Assembly (NCBI RefSeq): GCF_001428545.1
Contig: NZ_LMHZ01000018.1
Coordinates: forward strand, 1,424 to 65,423
Reading direction: 5' to 3'
From: Noviherbaspirillum sp. Root189
Lineage (GTDB): Bacteria; Pseudomonadota; Gammaproteobacteria; Burkholderiales; Burkholderiaceae_D
DNA: 64,000 nt
Positions 444 to 47,147 of this stretch are shown in pieces (positions within the stretch are counted from its first letter, which is position 1; every line of letters begins with the position of its first letter). The translations under genes and the position numbers were made by a program. The notes under the pieces were generated by a model. It searched no databases. It saw nothing but the letters and a program-made list of their open reading frames with translations, and had not been told where the DNA came from.

Positions 444-481
444 TTAACGATCCACCAACCTGTACCTGCATCGGTACAAAG

Positions 482-513
482 AAAAAAGCCCGCAGACCTT
501 GCAGAATGCGGGC
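482..513 (-). terminator. Rho-independent terminator hairpin on the minus strand
   Basis: On the minus strand GCCCGCA (513-507) pairs with TGCGGGC (494-488) around a 12-nt loop and is followed by six T. It sits inside a 41-codon ORF (569-444) that has a good ribosome site (AAAGAGGA) and ends immediately before the next gene. The layout is that of an attenuator or of the end of a short minus-strand RNA starting near 570-660. Confidence 0.6.
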
Positions 514-583
514 GAATCCAATTCAAGGAGAGTTGGAGGAGACAAATCCATGATACTGCGGCGCAGCATAAATGTCCTCTTTA

Positions 584-18886: not shown

Positions 18887-19434
18887 GACACACTCCTTAA
18901 TGAGTAGAAAAAAATCCGCAGATCAATTCGCATTCGAAGCATGGCTCTTGGTATGGCAGTGCCGCTGCCGTCCGAACATTATATAAGAGCGCACTGGATC
19001 GGTTTGGCGAGCTTAGTCGCAGGGATCAGTACCTTTCGCATCGTCGTTTTGCTTTGTTTAATCCAGTGATTTTTAGACTGGCTTTACGAAGTAAACATGT
19101 TTATTTGAAAATGCTAGTCGCCTTGGAGTTTCCGAAGGTCTCAAATTGCTAACCGCGGTCTGACGATATAGGAACTATCTCTGCCCTGAATAAGGCAATA
19201 TTTCCGCACGTACTGTCCCGGTGCCTATCTTTGTTCAAGGCGTGGGTACCCGCTTGCCGATCAGGCGGGACCTCCTCATCAGATTGTTACTACATTTGCA
19301 CCTCGGAAACAATATTGATGTTATGATAAATCGCTTCCTGAAGTGCTTTCTCAAGATACAAGTCTAGTGCCTTGATTTGAAAGCCGCATTCGCGTTGTCA
19401 ATTTTTCATCATGCGTACAAATTAAGCGCAAACT
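18887..19434. other. Intergenic region with no recognised gene
   Basis: About 550 nt between divergent transcription units: the DUF6152 pair to the left, the HDOD kinase operon to the right. It must hold both promoters. I see no clear ORF, repeat or terminator. Confidence 0.5.
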
Positions 19435-21582
19435 ATGGAGACTCCGGTTCTCGACATCCAGCGTCGCCTGATGGCTGCCAGCCTGCCTGCGTTACCGCAG
19501 GTGCTGGTGCAGCTGATCAGCCATTGCGAGTCCGAGGAAGGCGGTATGGCAACGCTTGCCGAACTGCTTTCCAAGGATGCAGCACTCGCCACGAAAGTGC
19601 TGCGCGTTGCGGCCAGTCCCGTCTATCGCCGCGGCCCGGTGCCGGCCAATCTTGAGCAGGCACTGACGGCTATCGGCATCGACATGGTGCGCACCCTGCT
19701 CCTCACCGAATCGGTCTACCAGACCTTCAACGGCTTTGCTACCACGCGCGGCATTGACCTTCGACCCTTCTGGGTGCATGCCATCGCCACCGCGATCTCT
19801 GCGCGTGCCATCGCCGAAAAGCTCGGTTATGTACAGCTCGACGAAGCCTATCTCGCCGGCCTGCTCCACGATATCGGCCGGCTGGCGCTGGTCACCATCG
19901 CACCGGACGAGTACGCGGCCAATTTCCATGCGGAAGACGACGACGCACTGTGTGCGACGGAAGAACGCACGTTGGAAATCACGCACCCTGAGGCGGGCGC
20001 ACTGCTCATCGAAGGATTGGCACTGGACTCCTTCCTCGCCGACAGTATCCGATATCACCACGAACCGCTGGAACGGTTGCAGACAGCGCATCCCCTGGTG
20101 CGCCTGACCGCCCTTGCGGATGCCTTCGCGACGCACGCCGGCACTGTGGACGGGATCCCGCCCACGGTGGCGCGCATTGCCGGCTTCTCGCAGGAAGAGG
20201 CGCGCGAACACGCACGGACGCTTGGCGAGCAGATAGCGCATCTGGCGGCCTCGCTGGGCATCGACATCCCGAAGGAAATACGTTCGGCATTGCCTGTCTG
20301 GCGCACCGGCCTGGCGACACCATCGATCTTTGGCGGCGACCAGCTCAACGAAAAGGTGCGCGATCTCATCCTGGTGTCGAAAACGGCGGAGGAGCTCCGC
20401 AAGTTCCACGACGCGAACGCGTGCACCCGCGCCATTGTGAAGTCGTCGGTCGTCCTATTCGGCTTCTCCGACGCAATCGTGCTGTCCGCATCGGCCGGCA
20501 GCGATGTGCTTACGCCCGCTGCGCTGGAAGACGACCGGATGCGCCTGTCCGGGTTGTCGCTGCCGCTGGACGAAGGCAACATTGCCGGCGTGGCAGCCCT
20601 GCATGGCATGGCGGCCTTCCATATTCCCCCGCGCGTGGCTTCGGTGGTCGAGGATCAGCTGCTCCGCTTTTTCAAGACGGATGCACTCGTTGCGCTGCGC
20701 CTTTCTTCCTCGACGGATAAGTCAGTGGTCCTGCTTGGCGCGATGAGCGCGGGACAGGCGCAGCTCTTGCGGAACCGACAGCATCTGCTCGGCGACTTCG
20801 GCCGTCAGTCAGGCGCCATCCTCGGCCAGACGATGCAGCATAACGAGAAAGCCGGTGTTCCGGATGCGGCCCTCGCCAGTGAATTCCAGCTTGCCGCGCG
20901 GCGTGTTGCGCATGAAGTCAACAACCCGCTGTCGATTATTAAAAACTATCTCACGTTGTTGGACCGCAAAGTCGACAGTGGACAAGCGATTGGCGGCGAT
21001 TTATCGGTCGTGGCCGAGGAGGTCGACAGGGTGGCGCAAATCGTTAACGACTTCGCCCAGGAACACCAGTCGCAGCAGGCGCAACCGGATGACAGTGCCG
21101 ATGTCAATGGGACGCTGGCGCACGCCGCGCGCATGTTTTCCGACAGCGGTTCGTTGCATCCGGAGGTACGCATCGCGCATCACGCCTCGCGTGAACCGGT
21201 CCGCGCCGCCATCGATTCGCGCGTCCTCAACCAGATCCTGGTCAACCTGGTGAAGAATGCCAATGAAGCAATGGCCAACGGCGGACGGATCGATTTGCGC
21301 AATGCCGGACTGGTTCCGCGTGACGGCCGGCACTGGATCGCCGTCAGCGTGATCGACACCGGCCCCGGCATTCCGGACACCTTGATGCCTCGGCTGTTCT
21401 CGCAGATGGTCAGTGCGAAAGACGGCCCCAACCGCGGCCTCGGCCTGTCCATCGTGCACGACCTGCTGACCAAGGCGGGCGGGAAGATCAGTTGCCGCAG
21501 CAGCAATGCCGGCACGGTGTTCGACATTCTCCTGCGCCCCGCGCCCTTTCATGCCCACCCCGAACCCGGAGAACGCGGATGA
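19435..21582 (+). CDS. HDOD-domain sensor histidine kinase
   Basis: A 715-aa soluble signalling protein. An HDOD domain (about 10-210) starts LPALPQVLVQLISHCES and keeps an HD pair in GLLHDIGRLAL. A GAF-like region spans about 300-450. The kinase core follows: H-box RRVAHEVNNPLSIIKNYL (about 487-505), N-box ILVNLVKNANEAM, G1 VIDTGPGIP and G2 NRGLGLSIVHDLL. It lacks transmembrane helices. It overlaps the response-regulator gene by ATGA, so its phosphotransfer partner is probably that receiver-PAS-GGDEF-EAL protein. HDOD fused to a kinase suggests input from a cytoplasmic state. Confidence 0.92.
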   Translation: METPVLDIQRRLMAASLPALPQVLVQLISHCESEEGGMATLAELLSKDAALATKVLRVAASPVYRRGPVPANLEQALTAIGIDMVRTLLLTESVYQTFNGFATTRGIDLRPFWVHAIATAISARAIAEKLGYVQLDEAYLAGLLHDIGRLALVTIAPDEYAANFHAEDDDALCATEERTLEITHPEAGALLIEGLALDSFLADSIRYHHEPLERLQTAHPLVRLTALADAFATHAGTVDGIPPTVARIAGFSQEEAREHARTLGEQIAHLAASLGIDIPKEIRSALPVWRTGLATPSIFGGDQLNEKVRDLILVSKTAEELRKFHDANACTRAIVKSSVVLFGFSDAIVLSASAGSDVLTPAALEDDRMRLSGLSLPLDEGNIAGVAALHGMAAFHIPPRVASVVEDQLLRFFKTDALVALRLSSSTDKSVVLLGAMSAGQAQLLRNRQHLLGDFGRQSGAILGQTMQHNEKAGVPDAALASEFQLAARRVAHEVNNPLSIIKNYLTLLDRKVDSGQAIGGDLSVVAEEVDRVAQIVNDFAQEHQSQQAQPDDSADVNGTLAHAARMFSDSGSLHPEVRIAHHASREPVRAAIDSRVLNQILVNLVKNANEAMANGGRIDLRNAGLVPRDGRHWIAVSVIDTGPGIPDTLMPRLFSQMVSAKDGPNRGLGLSIVHDLLTKAGGKISCRSSNAGTVFDILLRPAPFHAHPEPGERG

Positions 21583-23789
21583 ACGTACAGAACGCACCGA
21601 TATTCGTTCCCGATTTCACCGGCCGGAATGATACGCCGGCCATCACACCCGCCGCACCGCGCTTGCTGCTGGTGGACGACGAACCGCGTCTCCTGTCCAG
21701 CCTGGCCGATCTGCTCGACGGCAACGGCTACGAACTGACCACCGTCGGCGGCGGGCACGAGGCGATCACCATGCTCGCACGCCTGCATTTCGATCTTGTG
21801 CTGCTTGATCTGCGCATGCCCGGCGTGAGCGGCCACGACGTCATGGACTTCATCAACGAGCGCGGCATCGACACCGATGTCATCGTGCTGAGCGGGGACA
21901 GCGGGATCGAAGCGGCAATCGGGGCCATCAACCGCCGCGCCTACGGCTACCTGCGTAAGCCATACCGGCACGATGAACTGCTCAGCCTCGTCGGCAACTC
22001 GCTTGAGCGCCGCCGACTGGCTGCGGAAAACCACGACTTCGCCTGGCGGCTCGAATGTTCGGAAAAGCTGTACCGCTTCCTCATTGACAGCTCTCCCGAC
22101 ATTATCTATACCCTTGACCCTGAAGGCCGCTTCACGTACATCAATCGTCGTGTGACGGAGCTGCTCGGTTTCGACCGTAATGAATTGATCGGGGCCTCGT
22201 ATACCACCATCGTGCATGACGACGACCTCGAGCGCGCACGCTACGTCTTCAACGAACGCCGGGTCGGAGAGCGCGCCACGCGCAACGTGGAACTGCAGCT
22301 GAAATGCGCGGACCCGTTGAAGGCACGTACTTTCGAAACCTCGCTGCGCACCATCTCGTTCAACTCCATCGGCATGTACCTGAACAACGGCAAGCAGGGT
22401 ACGAGCGAATACACCGGTACTTACGGCATCGCGCGTGATGTCACGGAAAAGCGCCGCACCGAAGAGGTCATCGCCTATCAGGCTTACCACGACATCCTGA
22501 CAGACCTCCCGAATCGGGCGCTGTTCCGCGATCGGCTGGAGCTGGCCATCGTCCAGGCCCGGCGCAAGGAGGAGGAACTTGCCCTGATGTTCGTCGATCT
22601 CGACCGCTTCAAGACGGTGAACGATTCGCTCGGCCATCTGAAGGGGGACGAACTCCTGCGGCAAGTCGCCGTGCGCCTGAAGAGCTGCATTCGCAAGGGC
22701 GATACCCTGGCACGCATCGGCGGCGACGAATTCGTTGTGCTCATGCCGGAGTTGCGCGAACGTTCGTCCGCCTCCGTGGTTGCACAAAAATTCCTGCAGG
22801 TGCTGTCAGCGCCGTTCATTCTCGATAACACGACGCTCCATATTTCCGCCAGCATCGGCATCGCGGTGTTCCCCGAGGACGGCGACAAGATCGACGACCT
22901 GATTCGTCACGCGGACATGGCGATGTACAAGATCAAAGGAGAAGGAAAGAACGGGTTCAGCTTCTACGACCGTTCACTGCTCGACGCCGCGCATGACAAG
23001 GTCCTGCTGGAGCAGGACCTGCGACGCGGCTTCAAGGCTGGCGAACTCGAAATGTATTACCAGCCGCAGATCGATGCCAGGACCGGCGCGGTGGTCGGCG
23101 CCGAGGCCGTCATGCGCTGGAATCATCCCCGGCGCGGCGTGCTTCCCGCAGGCGAATTCCTGCCGCTGGCCGAAGAAGCGGGCTTGATGGTGCCGTTCAG
23201 CGACTGGATGGTGGACAGCGTGTGCCGCGACCTGCGGCGCCTGCGTGATGAAGGCAAGGAGGCCGTGCGGGTGTCGATCAACCTGTCACCGACCTGTCTC
23301 ATGCGGGACAACTTCTTCCGGACCTTGGCGAGCGCGCTTGACACGTACCGGATACCCGCGACGCAACTGGAAGTCGAGATCACCGAAAACATCTGCATCC
23401 GCGATCCTGAAACCGCCATCAAGCATCTGAAAAAACTGAGCAGCTTCGGTGTGCGCATTGCGATCGACGATTTCGGCACCGGCTATTCCTCGCTGGCCTA
23501 TCTGCAGCGCTTCCCCGTCAACACGCTCAAGATCGACCAAGCGTTCATCCGTGAGATCGGCCATGCCGACGGCCATTTCCCTGTGGTGCTCGCCGTCATT
23601 GCCATTGCGCGGGGGCTGAAGCTCGATCTGATTGCGGAGGGCGTGGAATCGGAGTTGCAGGCACGCTATCTCGAACAGGCCGGATGCAAGATCATGCAGG
23701 GCTTCCTGTACCACAAGCCGCTTCCGCTGGAACGGTTCAGTGAACTGCTGCATGTGCAGGCGCCCACGCGCAGGATAGGAGCGGGATGA
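21579..23789 (+). CDS. Response regulator with receiver-PAS-GGDEF-EAL domains (c-di-GMP turnover)
   Basis: A 736-aa protein. The receiver domain (about 25-140) has LLLVDDEP, phospho-acceptor Asp in LLDLRMPG and Lys in YLRKPY. PAS is at about 165-285 (RFLIDSSPDIIYTLDPEGRF). GGDEF is at about 305-465 with an intact GGDEF motif and the RxxD inhibition site five residues before it (RKGD). EAL is at about 485-730: the signature reads EAV, but the catalytic set appears complete (INLSP, EVEITE, IDDFGTGYSS, LKIDQAFI, AEGVES, QGF). Both synthesis and hydrolysis of c-di-GMP are possible. The ATG at 21579 overlaps the kinase stop. Confidence 0.93.
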   Translation: MNVQNAPIFVPDFTGRNDTPAITPAAPRLLLVDDEPRLLSSLADLLDGNGYELTTVGGGHEAITMLARLHFDLVLLDLRMPGVSGHDVMDFINERGIDTDVIVLSGDSGIEAAIGAINRRAYGYLRKPYRHDELLSLVGNSLERRRLAAENHDFAWRLECSEKLYRFLIDSSPDIIYTLDPEGRFTYINRRVTELLGFDRNELIGASYTTIVHDDDLERARYVFNERRVGERATRNVELQLKCADPLKARTFETSLRTISFNSIGMYLNNGKQGTSEYTGTYGIARDVTEKRRTEEVIAYQAYHDILTDLPNRALFRDRLELAIVQARRKEEELALMFVDLDRFKTVNDSLGHLKGDELLRQVAVRLKSCIRKGDTLARIGGDEFVVLMPELRERSSASVVAQKFLQVLSAPFILDNTTLHISASIGIAVFPEDGDKIDDLIRHADMAMYKIKGEGKNGFSFYDRSLLDAAHDKVLLEQDLRRGFKAGELEMYYQPQIDARTGAVVGAEAVMRWNHPRRGVLPAGEFLPLAEEAGLMVPFSDWMVDSVCRDLRRLRDEGKEAVRVSINLSPTCLMRDNFFRTLASALDTYRIPATQLEVEITENICIRDPETAIKHLKKLSSFGVRIAIDDFGTGYSSLAYLQRFPVNTLKIDQAFIREIGHADGHFPVVLAVIAIARGLKLDLIAEGVESELQARYLEQAGCKIMQGFLYHKPLPLERFSELLHVQAPTRRIGAG

Positions 23790-25054
23790 TGGAAGCCGTG
23801 GCGACAACTGACCGGGTCGAGGCTTCGGCGCAGAACGGTACGCCGGAAGCGCAGTTCGCGCTCGCGCTCATGTACCTGATCGGGCGCGGCGTGCCGCGCG
23901 ACGAGAAACAGGGCGCCGCATGGCTGGAGAAAGCTGCCGCACAAGGCCACGCAGAGGCGCAGTTTCATCTCGGTGCACGCCATGCGACCGGCCAGGGCAT
24001 TCAAGACATCAAACAAGACTTCGACAAGGCCATCGACTGGTACCGCAAGTCCGCGGCTCAAGGACACGCCAAGGCGCAGTACAACCTCGGCCTGCTGCTG
24101 TATGGCCGGAAAGTCGCGAAGGCCGAAGAGAAACAGGAGGCCATCGACTGGTTTGAGAAAGCAGCGAGCGGCGGTCACGCCGGCGCGCAGAACAACTTGG
24201 GCCTGATCTACGCGAATGGCGTCGAGGCGCCCCGCGACTACCGCAAGGCGATCGACTTGTTCGCCCGGGCCGCGGCACAGGGCGACGCGGCCGGACAGAA
24301 CAACCTTGGCATCATGTACAGCACCGGCAAAGGCGTAGCGCAGAATCCTATGCAAGCCGCCGGCTGGTACGCGAAGGCGGCAGCCCTCGGTCACGCCGCC
24401 GCCCAGTACAACCTGGCGAACTTGTATGAAACAGGGAAAGGTGTCGGCCAGAATATGGACGTCGCAGCCAGGTGGTATCGTAAGGCAGCCGAACAAGGCT
24501 ACCTGAAGGCCCAGCTCAGCCTGGCACAAATCCTGGCTAGGGGTGGCGACCTTCCGAAGGACTTGGCTGAAGCCCTGTTCTGGTACCGCAAGGCGGCCGA
24601 GCGGGGCCATGCGCAGGCTCAGTTGCAAGTGGCGAAGATCCTGGATGCAGGTGACGGCATCGAAAGGGACACTCGGGAAGCACTGCGTTTCTACGAACTC
24701 GCCGCGCACCAGGATATGGTAGAAGCTCAGTTCCGTCTCGGGATGTTCTACGACTGCGGCGTCGATGTTGAAAAAAATGACGAAATGGCCTTGCACTGGT
24801 ACGGCAAGGCAGCCGAGCAGGGCATCGCGCGCGCGCAATATAACCTTGGGCTGATGCTTGCCTATGGGCAGGGGGTGCCGGCCGATCCGGTGAAGGCTTG
24901 GCAATGGCTGAACCTCGCCGAAGCGGCCGGACTGCAGCGAGCGGCTCGCCATCGCCGCGCAGTTGAAACACGTATTTCAACACAGGAACTTGCTGCGGCA
25001 AAGAGCGCGGTGGCCGAGTGGATGCCTCGGCAAAAAAGGCGCCTTGAGCGCTGA
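23786..25054 (+). CDS. Sel1-like repeat protein
   Basis: A 422-aa protein made almost wholly of about ten 36-residue Sel1/TPR-like repeats of the type AAxQGHAxAQYNLGxxYxxGxGV. It has no signal peptide. The ATG at 23786 overlaps the stop of the GGDEF-EAL gene (ATGA), making a three-gene translationally coupled set. Sel1 repeats are protein-interaction scaffolds, so it may link the kinase/c-di-GMP pair to an output complex (inference). The C-terminal 50 residues (AVETRISTQELAAAKSAVAE) resemble the usual Sel1 C-cap. No terminator is evident downstream. Confidence 0.9.
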   Translation: MMEAVATTDRVEASAQNGTPEAQFALALMYLIGRGVPRDEKQGAAWLEKAAAQGHAEAQFHLGARHATGQGIQDIKQDFDKAIDWYRKSAAQGHAKAQYNLGLLLYGRKVAKAEEKQEAIDWFEKAASGGHAGAQNNLGLIYANGVEAPRDYRKAIDLFARAAAQGDAAGQNNLGIMYSTGKGVAQNPMQAAGWYAKAAALGHAAAQYNLANLYETGKGVGQNMDVAARWYRKAAEQGYLKAQLSLAQILARGGDLPKDLAEALFWYRKAAERGHAQAQLQVAKILDAGDGIERDTREALRFYELAAHQDMVEAQFRLGMFYDCGVDVEKNDEMALHWYGKAAEQGIARAQYNLGLMLAYGQGVPADPVKAWQWLNLAEAAGLQRAARHRRAVETRISTQELAAAKSAVAEWMPRQKRRLER

Positions 25055-44894: not shown

Positions 44895-47147
44895 CTAGCC
44901 GCCGACATGCGCCGCCTGACCGCCATAGTCTTGTTCGGCTGCTTCTTCCTGCAAGCGAAGGTAACGTGACAATGCATCATCGAGAGGAGGCAACGCAATG
45001 CCCTTCTCGCTTTGCAACGCACTATACTTCGGCCTCGGCGCAGCATAATTCATCTGCGCGCAGGCCATCGGCTCCAGGCGACTCGTATCGATGCCTGCCA
45101 TCGTGCCGGCCCTGTGCGCCAGATCGGCCCAGGTGATCGGCTCCGCGTTAGTCAGGTGCCAGATCCCCTTTTCCTTGTCGATCAGCAGGTCGAGGCAAGC
45201 ATGCACGAGATCCGGGACATAGGTCGGAGACACCTTCATGTCATTCGCCGCGACGAATGGCAATCCGGCACGCAAGGATTTCAAAGCCTGCGCAACAAAA
45301 TTGTGACTGTCCCACGGACCGAAAAATGCGCTGGTGCGGATCACTAGTGCTTCCGGCAGCATGTCCAGCACCTTGCGTTCCGCTTCGACCTTGCTACGAC
45401 CATAAATGTTAAGCGGCGCCACGTTGTCGCCTTCGATATATGGCGATTGCTGACGACCGTCGAAAACAAGGTCGCTCGAAAATGTCATCAGTTGAACCTG
45501 ATGCCGCACGCAAGCGATGGCCAGCACAGACGGTCCAAGCGTGTTTTCCCGAAAGCAGCGCTCACTGTCCGTCTCGGCGTCATCGACGCGCACGTAGCCA
45601 CCCGCATTGATGATTGCCCAAGGGCGGTAACGCACGATGATACTTTCGACAGAAGCTGGGTCGGCAATATCCATCTCTTGCCGGCTCACGATTCGATAGG
45701 CAAGGCTGCGTGCTTCGCAAATGCGCGCAAACGCACTCCCCAGCGTTCCAGAGGCACCCGTAATCAGTATTGGTTGTGCATCCCCCGGGCGACCATGCAG
45801 ACGCTCGGAGGAAAATGAGGCAACCGCTGCGCTGGTGGCGACAGGAGGACACAGGAACCGCCCGGGCCGATGCCACCAGCCCAGCCCTTGCAATACCGGA
45901 TGCGACAACGGGCGGCCTGCGGATAGTTCGCGCATCAGGGATGCGACTGCGGTAGGACGCGGATGCCCCGAGCGGACATCAAACGGGCCAGGCTCGTAAT
46001 AGCCGCGGCACTCGGTTACGAGGCAATTCCAGTCATACGATCCAAGCAGAGCCCAAACGGTGACTGCGCGCACGTCGACGCCGTTGCACCGTACCTGCTG
46101 GGCGGCTTCCCAGATTTCCAGCAGCCAGCGCAGTTGGTCTTCACGGTTGGCATCAATGTGCGCCTCGGTGATCGCGATTGGCAAGCCGTAACGACCCCAG
46201 GCCTCCTGCAACAAGGGACCAATGCCTGGCGTCGGTGTGGCCAGTGCACGCGGCGTTTCGATATCGGCATGATGAAAATTCCGGTACGTTCCGACGTAAC
46301 GCTCGGGATAGCGGTCCACACGATGGTCGAGCCACCGTTCGCTCGTAATGTAGTAATTCACGCCGATAATATCCGGGGGGCATGGATTATCTTTAAACCA
46401 GAGCAATTCGGAAGTCTCAACGCCTGTACTGCTAAGGTATTCCCACAGCGCATGGTTCTCATCGACCTTGCCGCACAACAGGTCCCAGGAAAGCCAGCGA
46501 CGTTCGTTATAGAAGGTCGTCAGTTCAGCCATCTCCGAGGTGCTGTAGGTTTTCCCCAGATCATCTGTCTGCACAAGTTTCGCATTGGGATTGACTTCGC
46601 GTATCGCACGCATCGACAACACCACGGCGCGGCACTGATTGACAAGCGCCTGTATGAAGCTGCGTTCATCCCTGCCGTGCGGATACCACACGCCGTAGAG
46701 TCCGCTGAAGCGTGCCGTGGTGAGCGGTTCGTTGACCGGTGTGTAGTATTCAATCCATGGATAACGTCTTGCCACTGCGCCCGCAAATTCGGCGAGCCCC
46801 TCCGCGAAACCAGGGTCGATCAGGCTCGTGTGTCGCGGCCCGCTGCCATGGTGAACGAGGCCGACGATGGGCGTCACACCAAGCTTTTGCAGCGCAGGCA
46901 GCCTTTCGTCGGGCCATGACCAGTCCGCAGTATCAAGCCCGTCCGGCGCGGTGCGTTCCCACAGTACCGGATAACGAATCGCACGAATTCCCAACGACGC
47001 AAATCGTTCAAGATCGTCAGTGCGCGCCGCATGGCCGTTCCGTTCCATCTGGCTGAAATACTGGTCCAGCACCCGATTGACGGTGCATTCAAGCCCGCCC
47101 CATAAGTCGATTTCTGAATTCATATTTTTGTGTGCTTGTTTAATCAT
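44895..47147 (-). CDS. Fusion protein: GH1-like glycosidase plus RmlD-like sugar-nucleotide reductase
   Basis: A 750-aa two-domain protein. The first half (about 12-410) is glycoside hydrolase family 1-like with acid/base Glu140 in YTPVNEP and nucleophile Glu328 in AITEAH. The second half (about 457-735) is a short-chain dehydrogenase of the dTDP-4-dehydrorhamnose reductase type, with LITGASGTLG (nucleotide-binding glycines at 464-470), INAGGYVRVDDAE, FSSDLVFDG and YGRSK (Tyr582, Lys586). It may couple glycan processing with deoxysugar synthesis. The start is uncertain: 47147 or 47123, neither with a strong ribosome site. A glycosyltransferase gene lies upstream in the same direction. Confidence 0.9.
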   Translation of the reverse strand: MIKQAHKNMNSEIDLWGGLECTVNRVLDQYFSQMERNGHAARTDDLERFASLGIRAIRYPVLWERTAPDGLDTADWSWPDERLPALQKLGVTPIVGLVHHGSGPRHTSLIDPGFAEGLAEFAGAVARRYPWIEYYTPVNEPLTTARFSGLYGVWYPHGRDERSFIQALVNQCRAVVLSMRAIREVNPNAKLVQTDDLGKTYSTSEMAELTTFYNERRWLSWDLLCGKVDENHALWEYLSSTGVETSELLWFKDNPCPPDIIGVNYYITSERWLDHRVDRYPERYVGTYRNFHHADIETPRALATPTPGIGPLLQEAWGRYGLPIAITEAHIDANREDQLRWLLEIWEAAQQVRCNGVDVRAVTVWALLGSYDWNCLVTECRGYYEPGPFDVRSGHPRPTAVASLMRELSAGRPLSHPVLQGLGWWHRPGRFLCPPVATSAAVASFSSERLHGRPGDAQPILITGASGTLGSAFARICEARSLAYRIVSRQEMDIADPASVESIIVRYRPWAIINAGGYVRVDDAETDSERCFRENTLGPSVLAIACVRHQVQLMTFSSDLVFDGRQQSPYIEGDNVAPLNIYGRSKVEAERKVLDMLPEALVIRTSAFFGPWDSHNFVAQALKSLRAGLPFVAANDMKVSPTYVPDLVHACLDLLIDKEKGIWHLTNAEPITWADLAHRAGTMAGIDTSRLEPMACAQMNYAAPRPKYSALQSEKGIALPPLDDALSRYLRLQEEAAEQDYGGQAAHVGG

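Follow-up and report, generated by a model that had tools for sequence, protein, structure and literature searches.

How bacteria that carry many enzymes of cyclic di-GMP (c-di-GMP) turnover keep their signals apart is a general question. It is raised here by a three-gene operon at positions 19435..25054 (+ strand) of a stretch of 64,000 nucleotides (nt) from Noviherbaspirillum sp. Root189, which we call the window (contig NZ_LMHZ01000018.1, positions 1,424 to 65,423 of the forward strand). The contig belongs to a 6.1 Mb genome in which we counted 53 EAL matches, some of them fragments. The operon encodes a histidine kinase with an HDOD domain, a response regulator with both a GGDEF and an EAL domain, and a Sel1-repeat protein. 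The reading that we favour, with a probability of about 0.62, is that of a cytoplasmic two-component system that switches a bifunctional c-di-GMP enzyme, with the Sel1 protein as its dedicated partner or scaffold. A conserved operon that couples one kinase-controlled c-di-GMP enzyme to a solenoid protein of its own would be a clean genetic case for studying local signalling.

The open reading frames (ORFs) of the three genes are exactly those described in the first-pass annotation, which had been made from the sequence alone. According to its ORF, Pfam matches and orthologues, the first gene (19435..21582) codes for a soluble kinase of 715 residues with the architecture HDOD-(GAF)-HisKA-HATPase_c. 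The second (21579..23789) codes for a REC-PAS-GGDEF-EAL response regulator of 736 residues, counted from its ATG. The third (23786..25054) codes for a solenoid protein of 422 residues with 10 Sel1 repeats, as seen in the ORF, in Pfam and in the predicted structure. The best-identified relatives of the kinase are those of Noviherbaspirillum malthae (85%) and N. aerium (84%). When the window is compared with four close relatives, the ratio of nonsynonymous to synonymous substitution rates (dN/dS) is 0.09-0.12 for the regulator, 0.16-0.23 for the kinase and 0.17-0.18 for the Sel1 gene. All three genes are under purifying selection between close relatives.

A kinase match was found at E<=1e-70 in 117 of 294 genomes of the window's family and at E<=1e-60 in 18 of 369 genomes of the class, the window's own genome being included in both searches. 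Within the genus, the full kinase is missing from 4 of the 14 genomes besides the window's own. We collected 122 loci from 121 relatives' genomes in which the match covers most of the kinase, in batches of 22, 60 and 40, the last being held out; 13 of 97 further family genomes with a match, and 2 of 17 other genomes, were left out of this set. A contig scan gave 10 loci, 3 of which are orthologues. The regulator gene directly follows the kinase gene in 122/122 loci: in the first 82 it is always on the same strand and within 260 nt, and in the held-out loci it is directly adjacent in 40/40. Because the loci were picked by the kinase match alone, finding the regulator was not built into the sample. 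The Sel1 gene directly follows the regulator in 93 of the 122 loci (53/82 and 40/40 held out), although in one of them, L055, it is truncated by a contig end. Its distribution follows taxonomy, with 93/104 loci in the window's family and 0/18 outside. Hence, the kinase-regulator pair is the core of the module and Sel1 is a family-level addition. The first-pass annotation had made its proposal depend on this gene order recurring in relatives, and it does so in full for the pair, but for Sel1 not beyond the family. On a tree of kinase plus regulator with 83 rows (82 loci and the window), the presence of Sel1 takes 3 changes, consistent with a single gain and two losses; the tree was made quickly under LG+G4, its distant rows sit on long branches, and its root was placed at the midpoint rather than inferred.

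The kinase itself can be divided into three parts. The HDOD domain (residues 17-211; 19483..20067) matches PF08668 at 156.2 bits (cut-off 22.9), and it also matches the Pfam HD family at 41 bits; 23/23 orthologues match PF08668 at E<=0.01. The HD pair that the first-pass annotation had seen there is indeed intact. Moreover, the whole ligand-type set of the window protein is complete (H115, H145-D146, H184 and H208-H209 within the domain, and D229 just after it), and its members line up with their counterparts in 3hc1, an HDOD protein of solved structure. A GAF-like region follows at about residues 305-470 (20347..20844; limits approximate). A match to Pfam GAF at E<=0.01 exists for 12 of 23 orthologues, though not for the window protein itself, and this is probably a GAF domain between HDOD and HisKA. 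The kinase core (20899..21537) consists of HisKA (489-540), with the phospho-acceptor H493, and HATPase_c (594-701). Among the 83 sequences, H493 is kept in 82, N608 of the N box in 83 and D641 of the G box in 82. The motif at the phospho-acceptor reads H-E-V-N-N. An E/D-x-x-N/T after the phospho-acceptor His is the pattern of phosphatase-competent kinases, and H-E-V-N-N fits it.

The regulator is uniform in its functional positions. Its receiver domain (Response_reg, residues 30-137; 21666..21989) carries the phospho-acceptor D77, which is kept in 81 of the 83 sequences, together with D33 (81), D34 (79), S105 (83) and K127 (83). It is followed by a PAS domain (164-234; 22068..22280), a GGDEF domain with an intact motif and an RKGD I-site (302-458; 22482..22952), and an EAL domain with intact catalytic-type residues (479-714; 23013..23720), all assigned by Pfam. 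The GGDEF motif, the RxxD I-site and the EAV form of EAL agree with the first-pass annotation. D, E and F of GGDEF are present in 83/83 sequences, the first G in 82 and the second in 80; at the I-site, R is kept in 80 and D in 82. The EAL domain of the window has E509, N568, E600, E603, D630, D631, K651, E687 and Q707. Across the 83 sequences, E509, R513, N568, E600, E603, D630, K651 and Q707 are invariant, and D631 and E687 are each kept in 81. In 39/83 the A of EAL is replaced by G, and many orthologues thus read EGL. In GGDEF and EAL domains, residues of this kind have catalytic-type roles. The regulator is thus probably bifunctional, able both to make and to break c-di-GMP, as judged from its residues.

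For the third protein, Pfam finds 10 Sel1 stretches (296.6 bits), in keeping with the roughly ten repeats of the first-pass annotation. Its predicted structure has 23 helices at a mean predicted local distance difference test score (pLDDT) of 90.7, and Foldseek places Sel1 proteins, 4bwr and 6ok3 among them, at the top of its matches to this model. By simple hydropathy, no strongly hydrophobic 19-residue stretch occurs in 54 Sel1 ORFs (53 loci and the window; top mean 1.19). Without a signal-peptide-like or membrane segment, the protein is predicted to be cytoplasmic, and the domains of the kinase and the regulator predict the same location for both. An envelope or secreted protein of the AlgK, ExoR or MotX type was also considered, and this candidate was rejected because there is no strongly hydrophobic stretch and the NCBIfam scores lie below their cut-offs.

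From these features we infer phosphotransfer between the pair, the direction of control, a ligand for the sensor and a binding partner for Sel1, in a mechanism that would run as follows. The soluble kinase would read an internal cue through its HDOD pocket, which may hold a metal or a small ligand, and through its GAF region. It would autophosphorylate on H493 and pass the phosphoryl group to D77 of the regulator, and its H-E-x-x-N box suggests that it may also dephosphorylate this partner. Phosphorylation, a second input through PAS and c-di-GMP feedback at the I-site would together balance synthesis by GGDEF against breakdown by EAL. The Sel1 protein, added in the window's family, would act as a cytoplasmic scaffold or allosteric partner, and may bring this regulator, one of many EAL proteins in the cell, to a specific site or target.

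Several observations weigh against this proposal. GGDEF and EAL are both intact in one protein, which gives no net direction of c-di-GMP control. The metal-type site of the HDOD domain varies among the orthologues: D146 is present in 35/83 (N in 41), H115 in 35/83 and D229 in 9/83. An AlphaFold model of the HDOD-GAF part, built from a four-row alignment, reached a pLDDT of just 40.6 and was not used further. As for Sel1, 29 of the 122 loci have no such gene beside the kinase-regulator pair, which presumably works alone there. Where the gene is present, its linkage perhaps goes back to one gain with later losses, so that inheritance inflates the counts. Finally, L048, L051 and L053 have an upstream gene in common, and the linkage in these loci may partly reflect a plain conserved neighbourhood.

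The alternative that survives best concerns the output. The regulator might be a net phosphodiesterase in which GGDEF binds GTP and has a chiefly regulatory role; phosphorylation would then adjust c-di-GMP breakdown. Such an output would fit the two-component and scaffold elements of the mechanism above, and we see it as a possibility worth keeping in mind, though not the one to bet on. It gains from the closest solved chains, which belong to the GGDEF-EAL 'Motility regulator' (4rnh/4rnf), from the best NCBIfam match, the DibA phosphodiesterase (456 bits, below the cut-off of 980), and from PdeR and ArrR, which are described in the accessible text of their papers as kinase-controlled phosphodiesterases (PMC6637768, PMC11841396). 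Against it stand the intact and conserved GGDEF motif (D, E and F in 83/83) and I-site (R in 80/83), which differ from the degenerate GSDEM reported for RavR in the available part of its description (PMC6707612).

A second alternative, which we regard as rather unlikely, removes Sel1 from the system. The kinase-regulator pair would be the whole unit, and Sel1 a passenger on the same transcript that works elsewhere, for example in general protein assembly. The loci without an adjoining Sel1 gene and the upstream gene in common to three loci fit this idea, as does the small number of changes on the tree: with perhaps one arrival, the linkage may be an inherited chance. Yet the linkage lasts in most loci of the family, at a spacing of -4 to +60 nt in 53 of 54 regulator-Sel1 junctions, while the ten genes that flank the module in the window have not kept their place in the first 22 loci. 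In addition, Sel1 proteins are rare in this genome, which has one further Sel1-positive ORF, of 170 residues, versus its many EAL matches, and the Sel1 gene is under constraint. The last alternative, an HDOD domain that is an active metal-dependent phosphohydrolase whose product or substrate couples to the kinase, seems very improbable: the window keeps all ligand-type residues and the Pfam HD match, but same-order orthologues have N at D146 in 41/83 and lack H at 115 in 48/83, and the accessible texts report GsmR to be without phosphatase or phosphodiesterase activity and without an active-site His (PMC4114195), and three histidines of I2285 to be dispensable for its phenotypes (PMC9040570).

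The proposal of a kinase-controlled regulator with a Sel1 partner therefore has to do without HD-type hydrolysis as a common mechanism of the orthologues, given the 35 sequences with D146. The full ligand set of HD-type metal phosphohydrolases is present in the window and is not kept across the orthologues, and the intact HD pair loses the weight given to it as a key feature of the module. The histidines of the site are more stable, as H145, H184, H208 and H209 are each kept in 76 or 77 of the 83 sequences. HD-GYP phosphodiesterases have a GYP motif placed after the HH pair; in the translation of the window protein, we read no GYP motif in the HDOD region. Beside these counts, one locus is exceptional. 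In L057 (genome G006), nearly all HDOD ligand positions have changed and H145 alone is kept; Sel1 is absent and the kinase and regulator genes are still adjacent.

The change from HD to HN coincides with a change in the Sel1 protein. On the tree, the loci that have both Sel1 and N at D146 all fall into a single group (36 rows, support 100). Counted with a profile made from seven window repeats, 13 repeats occur in precisely these 36 loci out of the 54 with Sel1; the other 18 have 10 (7 loci), 9 (9 loci), 7 (the cut L055) or 5. Within the 36 HN loci, a cluster of five histidines (H145, H184, H208, H209 and H229) is kept without exception, and position 115 is occupied by N (12), S (12), G (6), H (3), Q (2) or T (1). 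The 40 held-out family loci have N at D146 in 40/40 and 13 repeats in 39/40. They probably come from the same group, and hence they confirm the constancy and do not add an independent second case. The shift in repeat number and that from HD to HN thus fall together on about one branch, and this is no more than suggestive. It is tempting to imagine that sensor chemistry and scaffold length changed together and, if the link is causal, that Sel1 binds or gauges the kinase-regulator assembly through an interface of fixed length, and that HDOD is a ligand or metal switch and not an enzyme. We consider this speculative and improbable; if it were true, the system would be a Sel1-measured c-di-GMP signalling particle. 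In any case, the HD/HN split and the change in repeat number offer a natural test of whether HDOD is a sensor or an enzyme and of whether solenoid length matters. Two held-out loci stand apart. L193 is alone in having its Sel1 gene broken into a pair of ORFs, in each of which 7 repeats were counted; in L195, position 145 is Y.

The way in which the genes are joined is less telling than it first appeared. The two ATGA overlaps lie exactly where they had been noted, at 21579..21582 between kinase and regulator and at 23786..23789 between regulator and Sel1. They had been taken to mean that the proteins are made in fixed proportions. However, exactly 4 nt are shared in no more than 20 of 83 kinase-regulator and 12 of 54 regulator-Sel1 junctions; these are upper limits, as our script favours the start with a 4-nt overlap wherever one is present. 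Moreover, both downstream genes have Shine-Dalgarno-like sequences of their own: GGAG at 21568-21571, 7 nt before the ATG of the regulator, and AGGAG at 23777-23781 for Sel1. Of the 83 kinase-regulator junctions, 78 have a spacing of -4 to +60 nt, and thus, at both junctions, tight packing is conserved and the 4-nt overlap is not. The claim about proportions had to be given up, and so did another one. Two PilZ genes of the window (43271 and 61916) had been put forward as candidate receptors; both proteins are real PilZ matches, but they are two of the genome's seven, about 18 and 37 kb away, and no tie to the module was seen. Altogether, the idea of a signalling complex stands on the fixed pair, on the kept phosphorylation and c-di-GMP residues and on the family-level Sel1 linkage, whereas its arguments from stoichiometry, from the HD pair and from PilZ are not supported.

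That a kinase controls a GGDEF/EAL regulator is already known, as the accessible texts of several studies document. The closest parallels are PdeK-PdeR of Xanthomonas oryzae and the RavA and RavS-RavR systems of X. campestris, in which a histidine kinase and a GGDEF/EAL receiver protein are likewise neighbours (PMC6637768, PMC11656802, PMC6707612). In these systems a third protein, FimX or TriP, is bound or controls location or activity, and PdeK-PdeR acts locally with FimX (PMC11656802). As far as these texts go, the window module differs from them in the presence of PAS and in the Sel1 gene that follows, and the term HDOD does not occur in the available part of the PdeK-PdeR paper (PMC6637768). 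RavR has GGDEF and EAL at the N-terminus, the acceptor D496 and a degenerate GSDEM (PMC6707612), in contrast to the N-terminal REC and intact GGDEF of the window regulator, which has neither of the RavR-type features, a C-terminal acceptor Asp and a degenerate GGDEF. Lpl0330-Lpl0329 of Legionella pneumophila resembles the window pair in that a kinase controls a bifunctional cyclase/phosphodiesterase response regulator (cited in the accessible parts of PMC4823724 and PMC11841396). ArrS-ArrR of Aeromonas veronii is similar as a kinase with a receiver-EAL protein, and there phosphorylation hinders the phosphodiesterase. In the text available, ArrS is BvgS-like with periplasmic PBP2 domains, and ArrR is REC-EAL, without GGDEF, PAS or Sel1 (PMC11841396).

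To our knowledge, the Legionella pair Lpl0330-Lpl0329 has neither an HDOD domain nor a Sel1 protein. The solenoid has an analogue in Vibrio vulnificus. There, the tetratricopeptide repeat (TPR) protein RcbA is encoded with the cyclase RcbB, and it binds, de-represses and can anchor RcbB at the pole. The likeness lies in a repeat protein encoded alongside a c-di-GMP enzyme; according to the accessible text, RcbA is of the TPR and not the Sel1 type, RcbB has TPRs of its own and GGDEF only, and no two-component pair is involved (PMC12282931). RcbA-RcbB and PdeK-PdeR/FimX illustrate that such partners can act in the proposed way, and neither is of the same family as the Sel1 case. HDOD domains have also been linked to c-di-GMP or motility control, in GsmR, ZpdA and I2285 (PMC4114195, PMC12607878, PMC9040570). 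In the parts available, HDOD is the output of a response regulator (GsmR), is fused to EAL (ZpdA) or lies beside a phosphodiesterase (I2285), whereas in the window it is the input of a histidine kinase. None of the literature matches listed, mostly from non-subscription sources, gives an account of an HDOD-GAF kinase input together with a Sel1 gene in the operon. What appears to be new here is the use of an HDOD-GAF kinase as the input of a GGDEF/EAL regulator, plus the Sel1 gene in the same operon.

Upstream of the kinase, comparison of the window with the aligned sequences of four close relatives shows a conserved promoter-like block at 19293..19331 (+ strand); good alignment begins only at about 19293. 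The block contains an extended -10-like element, TGTTATGAT, at 19319-19327, about 107 nt upstream of the kinase start. A sigma-70 consensus scan did not report this block; it gave 1 match against a shuffle mean of 2.1, and the terminator scan gave 3 against 6.5. Rfam has no gathering-level match inside the operon. We also considered that the operon might be a piece of a larger conserved block, and rejected this, since 0 of the ten genes flanking it in the window are found at their position again among the first 22 loci, some of which are cut by contig ends. The gene common to L048, L051 and L053 shows, however, that the surroundings are more stable in some relatives than in others. Two flanking transporter genes have weak matches of 25-28% among these loci. 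Lrp and HPPD recur only in genome G010 (L039, approximately the first 1600 bases), where they lie upstream of the module, with 86-93% identity, and in the window they lie downstream of it; the module or its surroundings must have moved. Two kinase matches are present in some members of a single genus (genomes G511, and also G565 and G595). The two copies of G511 (L128 and L129) are about 16 kb apart, each with an adjacent regulator and neither with Sel1. Elsewhere in the window, Rfam assigns positions 481-544 (- strand) to the Betaproteobacteria toxic small RNA RF02278, at 51.8 bits versus a gathering score of 50, and an ORF of 750 residues at 44895-47147 (- strand) appears, by eye, to join a glycosidase-like N-terminal half to an RmlD-like reductase C-terminal half.

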